From positions 1 through 48,351 of the forward strand of contig JAUSKC010000008.1 of NCBI GenBank assembly GCA_030647125.1: a stretch of 48,351 bases of DNA, read 5' to 3'. A program made the position numbers and the translations under genes. The DNA comes from Nanobdellota archaeon (GTDB lineage: Archaea; Nanobdellota; Nanobdellia; Pacearchaeales; GW2011-AR1). Shown here one piece after another: positions 4,618 to 48,351 of the stretch (positions within the stretch are counted from its first letter, which is position 1; every line of letters begins with the position of its first letter). A model generated the notes under the pieces. It was not told the origin of the DNA. It saw nothing but the letters and a program-made list of their open reading frames with translations, and made no database searches.

Positions 4618-5049
4618 ATGCCTCATCAATGCGTTCATTGTTCTAAGATTATACCTATGGGAAGCTCAGAGCTACTTGAAGGTTGCAAAGGTTGTGGGGG
4701 CCGGTTCTTTTTTTACATAAAAGACGAGCAAATGCAAAGAATTCTTGCTAAAAGAGAAAATGAAGAAATTGAAGATATAATAGGAATACCTAATGAAGAA
4801 AAAAAACAGGTTGAGAAAGACATACGTGAAATCGCTGGAATTGAAGACGAAAATGCGCCGGTAATTCTTGATTTAGAAAGCGTTAAAGTAATAGGACAAG
4901 GAAAATTCGAAATTGACCTTGTAAACTTATTTAGAAAAGACAGACCTTTAATTTATAAAATGGAAGAAGGAAAATACATTATTGATTTATCTACTACATT
5001 AAAAAATTTGGACAAAAATAATGACAGAACTAAAGTTCAGCACAAATAA
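4618..5049 (+). CDS. Zn-ribbon protein, DUF2072 / ArvC-OapC-like
   Basis: N-terminal CxxC...CxxC ribbon 'CVHCSKIIPMGSSELLEGCKGCGGRFFFY'; third member of the ArvABC neighbourhood. Confidence 0.8.
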   Translation: MPHQCVHCSKIIPMGSSELLEGCKGCGGRFFFYIKDEQMQRILAKRENEEIEDIIGIPNEEKKQVEKDIREIAGIEDENAPVILDLESVKVIGQGKFEIDLVNLFRKDRPLIYKMEEGKYIIDLSTTLKNLDKNNDRTKVQHK

Positions 5050-5073
5050 AAATTCAGAAGAATTTTCATAATG
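5021..5073 (+). repeat. Recurrent linker element copy 1 (sORF plus two hairpins)
   Basis: ATGACAGAAC-TAAA-GTTCAGCACAAATAAAAATTC-AGAA-GAATTTTCATAATG; sORF MTELKFSTNKNSEEFS*. Confidence 0.75.
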
Positions 5074-6348
5074 AAAAAAATAAATGAAATATTTGAGGAC
5101 GTAATCGGGAAAAGTAAAATTCCAGAAACTGAAAAGAAATTTATCAAGCAAGAGCTTAAGAATTTTGGGGATAAATTAAACAAAAGCATTATATCAAAAA
5201 AGATAAAGGCAGAGGTTTTTTTTGGAGGAAGCTTTGTGCGCGACACAATGACAAAGCGCGAACAATATGATGCAGATGTTTTTGTAAGATTTGACAAGCA
5301 ATACAAAAAAGAAAATTTAACAGAGATGCTTGAAAAGATCCTAAAACCAAATCCAAATTTAAAACTTGTTCACGGCTCGCGCGATTATTTTAAATTAAAA
5401 GTTTCAGAAAACTTTGAGATTGAAATTATTCCTGTCTTGAAAATAAGAAAACCTGAAGAGGCAGATAATATCACGGACCTTTCATATTTTCATGTCAATT
5501 ACATAAAGAAAAAAATGAGCGAGAAGATAAAGAGGGAAGTGATAATTGCAAAGGTTTTTTGCCAGGCAAATCACGTTTACGGGGCTGAATCATACATTCA
5601 AGGTTTTTCTGGTTACGCACTTGAGTTGCTTATGATCAAATACAAAAGTTTTCTGAATTTCCTGAAGGAAGTTAATAAAATAAAAAATAACGACAAACTA
5701 ATTGTAGATATTGAAAAACACTATAAGAATAAAAATCAAATCATGATGGACTTAAATGAATCAAAACTTGGCTCCCCTATAATTCTTGTTGACCCAACTT
5801 ACAAGCAAAGAAACGCCCTGGCTGCTTTGTCTTTGGAGACATTTAATAAATTTAAAGAAGAAGCACGAAAATTCTTGAAAGTTCCGTCTGTAGAATTCTT
5901 CACGGAAAGAAAAGTTGATATTGAAAAAATAAAAGAAGATGCAAAAAAGAAAAAAGAGGACTTTATTTTAATAGAAATATGGACTGACAAGCAAGAAGGG
6001 GATATTGCAGGAAGCAAACTTCTGAAATTTTACAGACATTTATTAACAGAGATTGAAAGATTTTTTGACATTAAAAATAAAGGATTTAATTATAACGGAA
6101 AACACGCGGCGCGGTTTTTTTATGCGGCGCAGAAAAAGAAGGAAATTGTTGTTAATGGTCCGGCTACAAGCGACAAGAAAAATGTAAAGGAATTTCAAAA
6201 ACACCACAAAGTAACGTACACTAAAAAAGGAAGATTTTATGCGAAAGAAATTGTGGAACTTAATCTAAAAAGATTTATAGATAAATGGAAAAAGAAAAAC
6301 GCAAATAAAGTCAAAGGAATGTATATCACAGAAATTAAGGTTTTGTAA
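5071..6348 (+). CDS. cca: Archaeal CCA tRNA nucleotidyltransferase
   Basis: 'FFGGSFVRDTMTKREQYDADVFVRF' nucleotidyltransferase GS...DxD motif, class I CCA-adding enzyme layout. Confidence 0.9.
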   Translation: MKKINEIFEDVIGKSKIPETEKKFIKQELKNFGDKLNKSIISKKIKAEVFFGGSFVRDTMTKREQYDADVFVRFDKQYKKENLTEMLEKILKPNPNLKLVHGSRDYFKLKVSENFEIEIIPVLKIRKPEEADNITDLSYFHVNYIKKKMSEKIKREVIIAKVFCQANHVYGAESYIQGFSGYALELLMIKYKSFLNFLKEVNKIKNNDKLIVDIEKHYKNKNQIMMDLNESKLGSPIILVDPTYKQRNALAALSLETFNKFKEEARKFLKVPSVEFFTERKVDIEKIKEDAKKKKEDFILIEIWTDKQEGDIAGSKLLKFYRHLLTEIERFFDIKNKGFNYNGKHAARFFYAAQKKKEIVVNGPATSDKKNVKEFQKHHKVTYTKKGRFYAKEIVELNLKRFIDKWKKKNANKVKGMYITEIKVL

Positions 6349-22540: not shown

Positions 22541-22594
22541 GAAAAAGAACAATAATGTTATACTTGTTTACACCGAGAATAATAAAGTTGTTCT
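22541..22594 (+). repeat. Direct repeat copy A containing a tRNAVal anticodon-arm-like fragment
   Basis: gaaaaagaacaataatgttatacttgtttacaccga, matching 23072-23104 nearly exactly. Confidence 0.7.
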
Positions 22595-23005: not shown

Positions 23006-23071
23006 CTATTTATACTTAAAAAGATATTTATTAATCTTTCTGTAATATATTATAAAAAACTATTTAATAAA

Positions 23072-23136
23072 AAAAGAACAATCATGTTATACTTGTTTAC
23101 ACCGAATATTCCGAGGTTCAACTCCTCGTGGGCCCA
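23072..23136 (+). pseudogene. tRNAVal(UAC)-like 3' fragment, 5' part missing (or split-tRNA 3' half)
   Basis: ...ACTTG TTTACAC CGAAT att CCGAGG TTCAACT CCTCG TGGGCCC A: anticodon loop, T-arm, 3' acceptor strand; no GGGCCCA 5' strand nearby. Confidence 0.65.
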
Positions 23137-23549: not shown

Positions 23550-24272
23550 ATGGAAATGCCAACAGAAATGCAGCACCAAGCAATGGGCTATGACAGAACT
23601 GCGACAATGTTCTCGCCAGAAGGGACGATATTGCAAGTTGAGTATGCGGAAAAAACAGTTCGACTGGGAAGTTCAAGCATTGGAATTGTATGTTCTGACG
23701 GAGTTTTCGTACTTGCTGACAAAAGAGTAAGAGATAAATTAGTTGTAAAAGAGTCGGCCAGTAAGATCTATGAAATTGATTCTAATATTATTGCTTCGGT
23801 TGCCGGAATTTTGGCAGATGCAAGAGTTCTTATTGAAAGAGCGCAAGTTCTGTCGCAGCAGCATAGAGTAACTTATGATACAGAAATAGAACCGGAATTA
23901 ATAATTAAAGACATAGCGAACGCGATGCAGCAATTTACTCAGTATGGTGGAGCAAGACCTTTCGGGGTTTCGTTTATGGTTGCTGGTTTGCACGGAAAAA
24001 ACCCTGAATTATTTTCAAGCGATATTACAGGAAATTATTTTGGATATCACGCACATGCAATAGGCGAGAATGACGAGAAATTAAGGGAAAGATTAAGAGA
24101 AAAATACAGAAAGGATTTGAAAATAAAAGAAGGAGTGAAAATCGCTACGGAAATCTTCAAAGAGGTTTTGGAAGATAGATTTGATTTGAACAGATTTGAA
24201 TTAGTTGTTCTTAGAAGTGGAAATGATAGACCTGAAAGATATGAAGGGGAAAATATTAAGGACGTGAAATGA
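23550..24272 (+). CDS. psmA: Proteasome alpha subunit
   Basis: 'GYDRTATMFSPEGTILQVEYAEKTVRLGSSSIGI'. Confidence 0.95.
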   Translation: MEMPTEMQHQAMGYDRTATMFSPEGTILQVEYAEKTVRLGSSSIGIVCSDGVFVLADKRVRDKLVVKESASKIYEIDSNIIASVAGILADARVLIERAQVLSQQHRVTYDTEIEPELIIKDIANAMQQFTQYGGARPFGVSFMVAGLHGKNPELFSSDITGNYFGYHAHAIGENDEKLRERLREKYRKDLKIKEGVKIATEIFKEVLEDRFDLNRFELVVLRSGNDRPERYEGENIKDVK

Positions 24273-24321
24273 CAGAACAAAGTTCAGCACAAATAAAAAT
24301 TTTAAGAAAATTTTCATAATG
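24269..24321 (+). repeat. Recurrent linker element copy 2 (sORF plus two hairpins)
   Basis: ATGACAGAAC-AAA-GTTCAGCACAAATAAAAATTTT-AAG-AAAATTTTCATAATG; sORF MTEQSSAQIKILRKFS*. Confidence 0.75.
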
Positions 24322-24657
24322 ATAGACCAAGTTGGATTAGAAAGAATGATTCGGGAAGAGGCTGCAGAATCAAAAGAATTTAGCAAAAGAAAAAATGATA
24401 GAAGATTTTTAGTTAGTGATTCTACTGCAAGAAATGCTTTGAGATATTTTAATTTGTTTACTGATGAAGTAAAAAGCAAAACAGGATTTAGCGTTAATAC
24501 ACTTCCTGAAATGAACAGTAGTTATGAAGGCGGAATGATTTTTTATATAGGCAACAAACAAATTGAGGCATTTATTCAAGTATCACCAGTAAACGGAGCT
24601 AATTATTCATTTAGATTCATGGGAAGAGAATATGAGGGAAAACTAAAATTAAATTAA
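24319..24657 (+). CDS. Hypothetical protein inserted in exosome/proteasome operon
   Basis: ORF starting on the TAATG of the linker element. Confidence 0.6.
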   Translation: MIDQVGLERMIREEAAESKEFSKRKNDRRFLVSDSTARNALRYFNLFTDEVKSKTGFSVNTLPEMNSSYEGGMIFYIGNKQIEAFIQVSPVNGANYSFRFMGREYEGKLKLN

Positions 24658-24658
24658 A

Positions 24659-25336
24659 ATGACACAAACAACCGCGCGAATTACACGAAACGGAAAACAT
24701 TACGAAATTATTGTTAATATGGAAAATGCCTTAAAATTTAGAAAGGGCGCAAATGTAACTGCTAATGAATTTCTAGAGATTGACAAAGTTTTTAACAATG
24801 CAAAAAGTGGAATGGTTGCTTCACATACTGAAGTTGAAAATGCATTCGGGACTTCTGATATTTATCAAGTAGCGGCGGAAATTGTGAAAAAAGGTGAAGT
24901 TCTTACGACGCAAGATTATAGAGATGAAGAAAGAGAAAAAAGAGTGAAACAGGTTGTTGATTTTCTTGCTAAAAATGCCATGGACCCTCAAACAGGAAGG
25001 CCTCACACACCCGAAAGGATTAAAAACGCTTTAGAACAAGCACATGTTAACATAAAAAATATGCCTGTTGAATCACAGATTAAAGATATCGTTGAACAAC
25101 TGGCAAAGATAATGCCGATAAAAATATCGACGAAAAAAGTCAAAATTGTCATTCCTGCAGTTCACACTGGAAAGGCGTACGGCCTAATGTCTGAATACAA
25201 GGAAGAAGAAAACTGGCTCGGAAACGGGGACTTGGAAGTTATTGTCGTCGTGCCTGCCGGATCGATTATCGACTTTTATGACAAATTAAATTCAATGACG
25301 CACGGAAGTGCTTTAACAGAAGAGATTAAAGATTAA
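24659..25336 (+). CDS. Ribosome maturation protein SBDS
   Basis: 'TARITRNGKHYEIIVNMENALKFRKGANV...'; SBDS architecture and operon position. Confidence 0.93.
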   Translation: MTQTTARITRNGKHYEIIVNMENALKFRKGANVTANEFLEIDKVFNNAKSGMVASHTEVENAFGTSDIYQVAAEIVKKGEVLTTQDYRDEEREKRVKQVVDFLAKNAMDPQTGRPHTPERIKNALEQAHVNIKNMPVESQIKDIVEQLAKIMPIKISTKKVKIVIPAVHTGKAYGLMSEYKEEENWLGNGDLEVIVVVPAGSIIDFYDKLNSMTHGSALTEEIKD

Positions 25337-25337
25337 A

Positions 25338-26012
25338 ATGACAGATGAAGAATACGAAAGAAAAATTGTAATACCTGGCGAGATTATTGCTGAAGGAGAT
25401 GATTATTTGCCTGGAGAAGGAACTGAAAAAAAGGAAGGAAAAATTTATTCTTTGCGTTACGGACTTGCAGACGAACAAAATAAACTTGTAAAAATAATTC
25501 CGCTTTCTGGAGTTTATCAGCCGCGAAGAGGAAATGTTGTTATTGGAAAAGTTGAGCTTCTTACTTATAATGGATGGGTTATTGACATTGGGACAGCAGA
25601 AAACGCTTTCTTGTCGTTGATGGAAGTTCCGAGATTTGTAAACAAAGATGCTTTGGAAGAAGTAATGGATATAGGCGATTTAGTTGTTGCAAAGGTTTGG
25701 AACATAAACCGAAGAGGAATTGACTTAAGCATAAAAATAAGAGGTCTCGGAAAGATTGATGAAGGAATTGTAGTAAAAATAAATCCTAACAAAGTTCCTC
25801 GCGTAATAGGAAAAGAAGGAAGCATGATTTCTCTCGTTAAAGATAAAACAAACTGCAATATTACCGTTGGACAAAACGGATTGATTTGGATTAAAGGACA
25901 AAGAATCGAGGACGAATTAAAAGCAAAAGAAGCAATTAATTTCATAACAGAAAAGTCATTTGTCAAAGGTTTGACTGATGAAGTAACTAAATGGTTTGAT
26001 GAGGCGAAATGA
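25338..26012 (+). CDS. rrp4: Exosome RNA-binding protein Rrp4
   Basis: 'VIPGEIIAEG' plus S1 and KH domains; operon position. Confidence 0.93.
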   Translation: MTDEEYERKIVIPGEIIAEGDDYLPGEGTEKKEGKIYSLRYGLADEQNKLVKIIPLSGVYQPRRGNVVIGKVELLTYNGWVIDIGTAENAFLSLMEVPRFVNKDALEEVMDIGDLVVAKVWNINRRGIDLSIKIRGLGKIDEGIVVKINPNKVPRVIGKEGSMISLVKDKTNCNITVGQNGLIWIKGQRIEDELKAKEAINFITEKSFVKGLTDEVTKWFDEAK

Positions 26013-26320
26013 CAGCAATAGCAGATGATAATATTAAGATAGCAAGAAGAATTGCTTCCACTAGATTAAATAGATTAGGTTCTGGATTAGATGAAGCAAC
26101 TTATATAAATAATCTTGTAGAAACAGTTTATGCAGATATTAAAAGATTAAATCCCTTGGACTCATTAAGAATTGCAGGTTTTGAAGATGTTGGGCATATA
26201 AGAAGGTTTGAAATGATATTCTTAGAAAGAATTAATGAAGATAGATTAATTTCAACAGGCAGATATTTAAGACAAGCAGATGAAACTAAATTAACTTACA
26301 CTATAAGGATGGATTTTTAA
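26009..26320 (+). CDS. Hypothetical protein between rrp4 and rrp41
   Basis: ORF, overlaps rrp4 stop (ATGA). Confidence 0.6.
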   Translation: MTAIADDNIKIARRIASTRLNRLGSGLDEATYINNLVETVYADIKRLNPLDSLRIAGFEDVGHIRRFEMIFLERINEDRLISTGRYLRQADETKLTYTIRMDF

Positions 26321-26321
26321 T

Positions 26322-27053
26322 ATGACAGCAAAAAAAACAGAAGATTTTGAAAGACCTGACGGCCGTGGGATTACTGAGATGAGACCAATCACTGCAAAAG
26401 TTGGAGTTGTGCCGAATGCCGACGGAAGCGCTATGTTTTCATTTGGAGATACAGTTGCTATCGCTGCAGTTTACGGACCTAAAAAAATGCATCCACAACA
26501 CTCGCAAAATCCTGAAAAAGGAACTTTGAGATGCAATTATAACATGATTTCTTTTTCAGTTAACGATAGAATAAGGCCTGGACCATCGAGAAGAAGCCAG
26601 GAAATTTCTAAAGTTACTGAATGGGCTTTAGAGCCGGCTGTAATGCTTGATAATTATCCTAACATGGTTATAGACGTGCATATTCAAATTTTGCAAGCGA
26701 ACGCATCGACTCGTTGCGCGGGAATAAACGCCGCAGCAATGGCTTTGGCTCACGCCGGAATTCCTATGAAAGAAATGGTTTCGTCCGTTTCTATAGGTAA
26801 ATTAGACAAGACATTAGTTGTGGACGTGAATAAAAAAGAAGAGGATTGGGAAGAAGGAGAGGGCGCGACAGATATTGCAATGAGTTTTACATCAAACTCG
26901 GATAAAATTACACATATGCAGTTGGACGGACATATAACAACTGAACAACTTGAAGAAGCAATGAAACTTGGCAGAGAAGCAACGAGAAAGATCTATGAAA
27001 TTCAAAAAAGAACTTTGAAAGATATTGAAATTATGGAGGGCGTTGAAGAATAA
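26322..27053 (+). CDS. rrp41: Exosome catalytic subunit Rrp41
   Basis: 'RPDGRGITEMRPITAKVGVVPNADGSAMFSFGDT'; RNase PH fold. Confidence 0.95.
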   Translation: MTAKKTEDFERPDGRGITEMRPITAKVGVVPNADGSAMFSFGDTVAIAAVYGPKKMHPQHSQNPEKGTLRCNYNMISFSVNDRIRPGPSRRSQEISKVTEWALEPAVMLDNYPNMVIDVHIQILQANASTRCAGINAAAMALAHAGIPMKEMVSSVSIGKLDKTLVVDVNKKEEDWEEGEGATDIAMSFTSNSDKITHMQLDGHITTEQLEEAMKLGREATRKIYEIQKRTLKDIEIMEGVEE

Positions 27054-45995: not shown

Positions 45996-47975
45996 ATGAA
46001 AAAGAAAGGTGGTTTTGGCAAGATACTTTTATTCTTTTTAATATTAGGTATAATATTAGTTATAGCACTTTTTGGAACAAAGATATATTTGTTCTTTCAA
46101 ATGATCATAGGAAATGATTTAACTATAAGACTAAGCACGGACAATGAAAATCTATTTATAAATAAAGGGCAAATAGAAAAAGTGGAATTTACGACGTCTG
46201 CAATAATGAATCCTTTTTGTAAATCATACTGCCAATCGAACTTTGTTGATTTGGGCAGTGGACAAGTAATTGAAAATGATAGCTTTGAACTTACTTTAAC
46301 AAGTTCATTAACAAAAAGTTATTCTATTGGTGTTAACAAGTTTGGAAAAGGGCAGGATCTTTATAACTTTCAAATAATATGCCAAAGCAAGAAGAGTTTC
46401 CTGTGCCAAACAACTGAAGATAAAAAGTTTAGAAATATTTTGCTAACAGTTGATTACGATTTAAACGATTCAGATAAAGAATTTGTTAGCAATATGCAAA
46501 ATAATATTTCTTATATAAACCAAAAGATAGACGACAATATTTTATTCATAAATGATACTAATAAGTTTTCAAAAGAGCATAGTAACATAAAAGAATTTAA
46601 TACAGGCAGAAGAATCAACACAGTTTCAAACAATTTATTAAATTTCAACACGACTTTAAATTTATCAAAAGCATTTTTAGATAACAATGAGTATGAGAAA
46701 TTAAATTTAAACGATTTAATAAATAATTTTAATGATATAGATAAAGAGTTTAATGAAATTAATGCTTCTTTTTACAACAATTTAACACGATTTCAAAATA
46801 TAATGTCCAACTTAACTTATATAGAATCCACTCTTAACAATTATACCAAACAAAATGTCTCTTTAAATTCTTCAGACCAAATAAAGTTTATAGAAGAAAA
46901 TTATAATGAACTTGCAACAAGTTTGAATTCAAAAAGCAATTTAAGTATAAGTATTATGCAAAGCAAAGTTAATTCCTTAAATTTAGAACTTGTGAATTTA
47001 GAGAACTTTATTAAAAATGAACCTGGTGAAGGATTTTCAGTTTCTTTAGATCTGATTAAAGTTACTAAACCTGTTTTCCAAACAAGCCAAAATAATCCTA
47101 TAATTTTAAACTTTAATCAAATTCAACCAATATGTTGCCTGAATAATATATGCAAACCATGTTGTAGTGGTTTAACATGCCAATCAAATCAAAGTTTGTA
47201 CCCTATAGTGCTTGTTCACGGACATGATTTTTCAAAAAGCACTACTGCAGAATATGCTCTTGATAGTTTCGGGCAGATACAAGATAAACTTGCAAGTGAT
47301 GGATATGTAAGCGCAGGAGAATTGTTATTGAATACAAATGATCCAAAGACAAACGGAATATTTGGTGAAATGAATTATCCTATAAATATTATAACAAGTT
47401 ATTATTTTGACATATACGAGACTTCTGGCAAAGGAACAATTATTCAAACCAAAACAGATAATTTAGATAGCTATGCCATAAGATTGAGGGATATAGTCAA
47501 TACAGTAAAAGAAAAAACTGGAAAAGATAAAGTGATAATAGTTTCTCATTCAATGGGTGGTTTAGTAACAAGAAGGTATATCCAAGTCTTTGGCTCAAAC
47601 GATGTAGATAAAATAATTCTGATAGGAACTCCAAATAACGGAATAAATGGAACAACACTAAGATATTGTTCTATTATTGGATCTTCCCCAGAATGCAATG
47701 ATATGGATTCAAGCAGCGTGTTCATAAATAAATTAAACAGAGCCAATGAAAGCAGCGTTCCGATATATAATATAATTGGAATTGGTTGCGACACTGATGG
47801 AGAAGATGGAGATGGAATTGTAAAAAGGAGCAGTGCTTATTTAAGTTACACTGAAAATTATTATATAAATGGAACTTGCGATTCCAGTTTCTATTATCTT
47901 CATTCGGATTTGATAAAAGTTGATAAATATCCTGAAGTTTATGACTTAATAAAAGAAATTTTAAAAACAAAATGA
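45996..47975 (+). CDS. Surface-anchored alpha/beta-hydrolase (lipase/PGAP1-like) with long extracytoplasmic coiled-coil
   Basis: N-terminal TM; 'YPIVLVHGHDFSKS' oxyanion region; 'VIIVSHSMGGLVTRRYI' nucleophile elbow; many N-x-S/T sequons. Confidence 0.82.
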   Translation: MKKKGGFGKILLFFLILGIILVIALFGTKIYLFFQMIIGNDLTIRLSTDNENLFINKGQIEKVEFTTSAIMNPFCKSYCQSNFVDLGSGQVIENDSFELTLTSSLTKSYSIGVNKFGKGQDLYNFQIICQSKKSFLCQTTEDKKFRNILLTVDYDLNDSDKEFVSNMQNNISYINQKIDDNILFINDTNKFSKEHSNIKEFNTGRRINTVSNNLLNFNTTLNLSKAFLDNNEYEKLNLNDLINNFNDIDKEFNEINASFYNNLTRFQNIMSNLTYIESTLNNYTKQNVSLNSSDQIKFIEENYNELATSLNSKSNLSISIMQSKVNSLNLELVNLENFIKNEPGEGFSVSLDLIKVTKPVFQTSQNNPIILNFNQIQPICCLNNICKPCCSGLTCQSNQSLYPIVLVHGHDFSKSTTAEYALDSFGQIQDKLASDGYVSAGELLLNTNDPKTNGIFGEMNYPINIITSYYFDIYETSGKGTIIQTKTDNLDSYAIRLRDIVNTVKEKTGKDKVIIVSHSMGGLVTRRYIQVFGSNDVDKIILIGTPNNGINGTTLRYCSIIGSSPECNDMDSSSVFINKLNRANESSVPIYNIIGIGCDTDGEDGDGIVKRSSAYLSYTENYYINGTCDSSFYYLHSDLIKVDKYPEVYDLIKEILKTK

Positions 47976-48072
47976 CAGAAAAAATAAATTTTTTCAGCAC
48001 AAATAAAAATTTGGAGAAAACTGGAGGACGAAAACATTTCAAAAGAAATGTTTTAGAGAAATTTTCATAATG
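47972..48072 (+). repeat. Recurrent linker element copy 3 (extended)
   Basis: ATGACAGAAAAAA-TAAA-TTTTTTCAGCACAAATAAAAATTT...AAACATTTCaaaaGAAATGTTT...AAATTTTCATAATG; sORF MTEKINFFSTNKNLEKTGGRKHFKRNVLEKFS*. Confidence 0.75.
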
Positions 48073-48351
48073 AAACAAAAATACAGAAGATCAGTATTTA
48101 TTGTGACTTACTCAATTCATCATGGTCGTATTAACTATTTGATTTTGAAACGAAAATGGCACTGGCGCGGCTGGGAATTTCCAAAAGGGGGAATTGAGGA
48201 CGGAGAAAAAATGATTAATGCCGTAAAAAGGGAAACATTAGAAGAAACGGGCAAAGCTGCATTGCAAATAAAAAGGTATGAAATTTATGGAAGATACAAA
48301 TACAAAAAAACTCTTCCAGACAGGCCGGGTTTTATAGGACAAAGCTATGTT
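48070..48351 (+). CDS. NUDIX hydrolase (partial, runs off window end)
   Basis: 'GWEFPKGGIEDGEKMINAVKRETLEETGK' = Nudix box Gx5Ex7REUxEExGU. Confidence 0.9.
   Translation, partial: MKQKYRRSVFIVTYSIHHGRINYLILKRKWHWRGWEFPKGGIEDGEKMINAVKRETLEETGKAALQIKRYEIYGRYKYKKTLPDRPGFIGQSYV

Follow-up and report, generated by a model that had tools for sequence, protein, structure and literature searches.

A dispersed, mobile-like repeat at start codons of Pacearchaeota-type archaea, probably tolerated through an in-frame relay ORF

The window, i.e. the entire 48,351-nt stretch of DNA that was analysed, contains three copies of a short repeat on its forward strand, each at the junction of two genes (5021–5073, 24269–24321 and 47972–48072), exactly where the first-pass annotation had placed them. 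Each copy consists of ATGACAGAA, a short hairpin, the identical 16-mer AGCACAAATAAAAATT, a second hairpin and TTTTCATAATG; with zero mismatches, the 16-mer is present only at these three places within the window. The layout of the unit, which is ~50 nt long, can be written as ATG-ACAGAA-(hairpin 1)-AGCACAAATA(A/C)AAA-(hairpin 2)-CATA-ATG. The final ATG serves as start codon for the gene that follows. In all three copies the first ATG opens a small ORF (the relay ORF), which runs in frame to a TAA sharing its last A with that start codon (TAATG).

Copy 1 (5021–5073, identified by both the sequence pattern and the covariance model R1 described below) includes the start codon (5071–5073) of cca, the gene for the CCA-adding enzyme (5071–6348, Pfam tRNA_NucTransf2). 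It is composed of hairpin 1 (5027–5038, GAAC TAAA GTTC), the conserved core AGCACAAATAAAAATT (5039–5054) and hairpin 2 (5049–5066, AAAATTC AGAA GAATTTT), and its relay ORF (5021–5071) encodes MTELKFSTNKNSEEFS. The upstream gene, coding for the origin-associated protein OapC (4618–5049, Pfam), runs into the element and stops inside the core (5047–5049) at CACAAATAA, as had been claimed; its tail is thus encoded by the element. Removing 50 nt in silico gives an OapC that ends with DKNNEKK within the start of cca, similar to the overlap of the two genes in a related genome (G057, ending NPDEKS; L180). An empty site with OapC ending inside the cca start would explain why OapC reads into copy 1. 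Gene finders can mis-annotate such gene tails as well as such tiny ORFs.

Copy 2 (24269–24321, again identified by both pattern and R1) lies between a proteasome subunit gene (23550–24272, Pfam) and a gene for a 112-residue protein without a Pfam match (24319–24657, start codon 24319–24321), which is followed by SBDS. Hairpin 1 (24275–24285, GAAC AAA GTTC), the core (24286–24301) and hairpin 2 (24296–24314) are arranged as in copy 1. The relay ORF (24269–24319) encodes MTEQSSAQIKILRKFS, and its first ATG overlaps the upstream stop at 24272 (ATGA). The surrounding genes (23550–27053) form an exosome/proteasome-type operon with the proteasome subunit, the unnamed gene, SBDS, an Rrp4-like gene, a small ORF and an RNase PH-domain gene in consecutive order. 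Upstream of this row there is a 35-nt direct repeat (22542–22576 and 23071–23105), 97% identical and 529 nt apart.

Copy 3 (47972–48072, likewise identified by both pattern and R1) is located between a gene with an alpha/beta hydrolase domain (45996–47975, Pfam) and a NUDIX gene (48070–48351, Pfam; start codon 48070–48072) that is cut by the window end. The ATGA overlap with the upstream stop, here at 47975, was correctly noted for both copies 2 and 3. Copy 3 carries a 42-nt extra piece. Its hairpin 1 (47978–47995, GAAAAAA..TTTTTTC, from the sequence) and core (47996–48011) are followed by a hairpin 2 (48006–48065) whose arms, 48006–48012 and 48059–48065, are split by the extra piece, as seen from the sequence and from comparison with another copy (L009). 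The extra piece harbors a third hairpin, GGAGGACGAAAACATTTCAAAAGAAATGTTTTAG (48023–48056, stem 48031–48054), so that the previously proposed two-hairpin layout holds for copies 1 and 2 and requires amendment for copy 3. Two further copies of GGAGGACGAAAACATTTCAAAAGAAATGTTTTAG are present in the source genome, each in or beside an element. Despite being 42 nt longer, copy 3 keeps the reading frame; its relay ORF (47972–48070) encodes MTEKINFFSTNKNLEKTGGRKHFKRNVLEKFS.

A search of the source genome (640 kb, 26 contigs) with the pattern TTCAGCACAAATAAAAATT, allowing up to two mismatches, matched 11 true copies and a single false positive in coding sequence, while the reversed control pattern gave no matches. 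Based on pattern and model searches together, the genome contains 11 full copies and a partial one (C18:31227). We then scanned one genome per species for 84,980 prokaryote species with AGCACAAATAAAAATTN{3,33}TTTTCATAATG and obtained 14 stretches, all of them in five metagenome-assembled genomes (MAGs) labelled Pacearchaeota, Nanoarchaeota or Nanoarchaeia. By coordinate matching, the five belong to the family of the window, four of them to one genus. In these MAGs and the source genome (six genomes), the covariance model R1 detected ~75 copies, copy 1 scoring an E-value of 1.7e-17, and revealed a second 3' type (ACAAAAT..ATTTTGCATAATG). The search for further copies suggested by the first-pass annotation was therefore productive. 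Tandem copies of the element share one ATG. Units from other genera whose 5' part differs (MKNKFFKDTKSGDFA and similar) are also in frame, apart from a few matches. No part of the element is spread more widely than its 3' hairpin module. Among 200 genomes of the order, a model of this module alone (R2) matched 22, 21 of which are in the family of the window, and at E ≤ 1e-4 it had no match outside this family among 378 genomes of the class. The genomes examined are incomplete MAGs. Near-exact core matches in 56 related genomes lack the ends of the element and were attributed to chance. The element was not found in four scans of viral contigs, and Rfam gave no match up to E = 1 for eight loci, in agreement with the initial impression that it corresponds to no named RNA family.

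The genes downstream of the element (cca, NUDIX, L31e, S13, S14, S19, a PC4-like protein and others) are mutually unrelated, and comparison of ~21 orthologous sites showed the element in just one or a few genomes per site. The same junctions in relatives are usually empty, with the element alone missing. For example, the S14 junction reads TAAA-ATG[element]ATGGGAGCATCAAATTGG in the source genome versus TAAA-ATGACGGCATCAGATTGG in G002, and the S13 junction reads TTAAA-ATG[element]ATGGTAGAACAAATT versus ATAAA-ATGGTAGAAAATATA in G060. Occupied and empty sites can also be compared within one genus, as for a ParA-like gene and a gene starting MAQAKRKKK (G058 and G056). In a third such case, a gene starting MADSG (G060 and G056), the promoter TTTAAATA lies ~25 nt before the start in both genomes. 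The scattered presence of the element, rather than a tree, suggests gain rather than loss of sites. Two genera have the element at the S13, S14, L10e-like and NUDIX junctions, which could alternatively represent old shared sites with turnover.

This distribution bears on the suggestion of the first-pass annotation that the element is a regulatory module ahead of selected genes. An attenuator-like leader, in which the hairpins and the upstream ORF sense a signal and control a chosen gene set, would account for the conserved core and hairpins, the upstream ORF and the presence of several ribosomal protein genes among the targets. However, the target functions are unrelated, both the peptide and the core frame vary, and the same genes in close relatives, even of the same genus, are mostly without the element. 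It therefore behaves as a spreading insertion and not as a selected regulator, and we consider the regulatory leader quite improbable.

At the S14 junction of four genomes (L202 of G058, L204 of G056, L201 of G059 and also L198 of G022), we observed a different leader ORF, e.g. MKSNQRFSFIRNGEHFK, which is in frame and whose TGA overlaps the ATG of S14. We saw no further copy of it among the loci examined, and it may be either another element family or a single leader. Before a PC4-like gene (L234, G022) a hairpin is flanked by two occurrences of the gene start ATGGAAAAAGACA, spaced ~54 nt from each other; this start duplication is without the ends of the element family. Yet another arrangement is seen in G176 (L273, L264), where tandem hairpin units of 28 nt each (ATAAAAATTCAGGAGAATTTTCATAATG) precede a gene; 28 is not a multiple of three, but a pair of consecutive units produces an in-frame ORF that reaches TAATG. 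Element copies L148 (G059) and L134 (G057) are located just behind a tRNA-like 3' end (GGTTCGAATCCCG...), suggesting that the mRNA start is made by tRNA processing.

The copies found are in sense orientation at gene starts and have an ATG on both sides of the insert. This ATG might belong to the element itself rather than represent a target duplication. Dispersed, precise insertions with a repeated ATG are what a classical non-autonomous transposon (a MITE or an IS200/IS605/REP-like element) moved by a transposase would produce. Yet inspection of the aligned copies revealed no terminal inverted repeats (the left end is ACAGAA, the right end TTTTCATA), and the single orientation at gene starts is unexpected for such a transposon, although selection could explain it. 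Moreover, the Y1 (HUH) transposase (PF01797), the sole transposase family searched, is absent from the six element-bearing genomes, all of them MAGs, whereas control genomes were positive. An IS200/IS605-like origin with ATGA as the target was rejected on the same ground, and also since most downstream genes continue as ATGG or ATGC. Overall, we regard a transposase-driven origin as unlikely, if by no means negligible. A viral vector was discarded in view of the empty viral-contig scans. A reverse transcriptase as the mover was discarded because such a gene is present in only two of the six genomes. In G057 (L133:649-1653, minus strand) its locus resembles a diversity-generating retroelement: the gene lies beside a pair of 85-nt repeats (1682–1766 and 2016–2100), 86% identical, one of which is inside an ORF. 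In some copies from other genera (G176, G177), the initial codons of the host gene are present a second time. As no more than a lead, this hints that recombination or template switching takes place at gene starts.

The reading frame of the element is kept in nearly all copies. A frame-blind search of the regions around the matches yielded 62 copies, of which 57 contain an open ORF that is in frame and ends with TAATG. The in-frame copies cover 24 of 29 distinct length combinations (binomial test versus one third, 6e-8); the copies share ancestry, so that the 57 of 62 do not amount to 57 independent tests and binomial values overstate independence. As a control, the other two frames of the same 57 copies are interrupted by stops in 56 and 34 cases. 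The upstream stop codon is often positioned −4, −1 or +1 nt from the first ATG of the element. Five copies depart from the rule and four of them have an explanation. One has no gene directly behind it. In G056 (C32), the upstream frame, open over 900 nt, crosses the whole element and ends 2 nt short of the ATG. In the S13 case of G057, the ORF passes through a second, partial unit and reaches TAATG at the likely true start, while in another copy of this genome (C6) an internal ATG restores a short relay. Only before the ParA-like gene of G058 is the relay plainly broken, with no rescue and with the upstream stop 20 nt away.

Among the copies, each of the three frames of the conserved core is used, giving unrelated peptides (endings such as FSTNKNSGEFS, SAQIKISEKFS and QHKYKTGDFA). 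Hence it is translatability that is kept, not a peptide, and the earlier description of a conserved small ORF is right as regards the frame and wrong as regards its product. A micropeptide gene copied around the genome would fit the similar length of the open ORF in almost every copy, but it can hardly be reconciled with one core specifying three peptides; this candidate was rejected. Another explanation for identical codons flanking hairpins is ribosome bypassing, i.e. starting at the first ATG and hopping over the hairpins to the second. The mitochondrial translational bypassing elements (byps) and T4 gene 60 likewise have hairpins with the same codon on either side. Bypassing, however, needs no open frame in the gap, whereas here the gap is not skipped sequence but an in-frame ORF that extends exactly to the second ATG in 57 of the 62 copies, which makes this explanation very remote.

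Hairpin 2 is well supported. Its seven pairs are formed in 96.4% of the cells of the alignment, a selected set of related sequences, with two-sided changes in 31 cells and one-sided changes in none; its covariation score was reached by none of 500 shuffles. Thus, both further copies and covariation, whose absence had been named as refuting the module, were found. For such a set the covariation supports a hairpin, and does not by itself prove an RNA function. Hairpin 1 is weaker, as its fourth pair is broken in four of 19 aligned copies. Hairpin 2 has a purine-rich loop, and an SD-like 4-mer is present 6–20 nt before the ATG in 53 of the 62 copies. By eye, ordinary genes of the window mostly have TAAAATG-like junctions or stand behind likely leaderless promoters, and are mostly without the SD-like motif. 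These observations, together with the wide spread of the 3' module alone, would agree with a mobile ribosome-binding site whose loop recruits ribosomes directly, the upstream ORF being secondary. Such a site would nevertheless leave unexplained why the total length stays in frame across three core frames, and in the source genome the motif is present in only six of the 10 copies counted; we therefore find it improbable. An internal promoter, with the core as a TATA box before the ATG, was also rejected: the spacing varies, and promoters elsewhere in the source genome look like TTTAAATA.

Taken together, the repeat family, the junctions matching empty sites, the in-frame ORF and the covarying hairpin 2 lead us to propose that the element is probably a dispersed mobile-like repeat of a Pacearchaeota-type clade that is placed at start codons and tolerated through termination-reinitiation at the relay ORF, rather than a regulator of chosen genes. 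Insertion would occur exactly at a start codon, leaving an ATG on either side, and the first ATG of the element would replace the start codon of the gene. A ribosome terminating next to this ATG, or starting there on a leaderless mRNA, would translate the relay ORF, terminate at its TAA and then reinitiate at the real gene, whose ATG overlaps this stop; the purine-rich loop of hairpin 2 may help in this step. The relay peptide would have no function of its own. Copies would spread as a mobile-like sequence, and mutations breaking the relay would be purged by selection where the gene depends on it. The translation-coupling part of the initial interpretation is strongly supported by the in-frame copies, the spacing of upstream stops and the covariation of hairpin 2, all of them sequence-level evidence. 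Overlapping gene pairs are usually strictly coupled (PMC6728339), and in Haloferax reporters reinitiation dropped to 40–60% at 13/14 nt and to near zero at 22–23 nt (PMC10666635). Therefore, an untranslated 50-nt insert should uncouple or silence a coupled gene, and the frame is presumably kept because the relay ORF carries ribosomes across the insert.

We further suggest, more tentatively and with slightly less than even confidence, that the element represents a new selfish or mobile class that targets start codons, is transparent to translation, stacks in tandem and has spread through one DPANN family without a known transposase, perhaps by recombination or template switching at ATG-containing gene starts. 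If so, every gene start that receives an insertion becomes a relay ORF followed by a new start codon. Repetitive DNA would then be seen to invade gene-dense, tightly coupled operons, those for ribosomal proteins included, without breakage. The element would also amount to a natural experiment on termination-reinitiation in uncultured archaea, with dozens of insertions in which the total length is held in frame and the peptide is not.

Among known systems, the closest kin in concept appear to be the Rickettsia palindromic elements (RPE), small dispersed hairpin repeats that are tolerated in unrelated genes via in-frame translation (PMC10969869; PMC2229807). Both kinds of repeat are inserted into many unrelated genes. 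However, RPEs are 105–150 bp long, have terminal inverted repeats and contribute a conserved peptide fused into the host protein, whereas the element described here is ~50 nt long, resides at the start codon and provides a separate ORF that stops before the gene and encodes no conserved peptide. Archaeal palindromic repeats with coding potential, the subject of a 2005 report as given by its title, seem to be similar. MITEs and the ERIC, BOX, RUP and REP repeats are likewise short, dispersed and without a transposase gene of their own; the element differs from them in its confinement to gene starts, its single orientation, its maintained frame and the lack of visible terminal inverted repeats. 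Termination-reinitiation at overlapping genes shares with it the TAATG stop/start overlap and the short distances at both ends (PMC6728339, PMC10666635). Elsewhere this mechanism couples ordinary neighbours, while in the present case the additional ORF between them comes from a repeat. A search of open-access papers did not retrieve the element. We place it among the small dispersed coding palindromes, with a fair chance that it merits a separate class.
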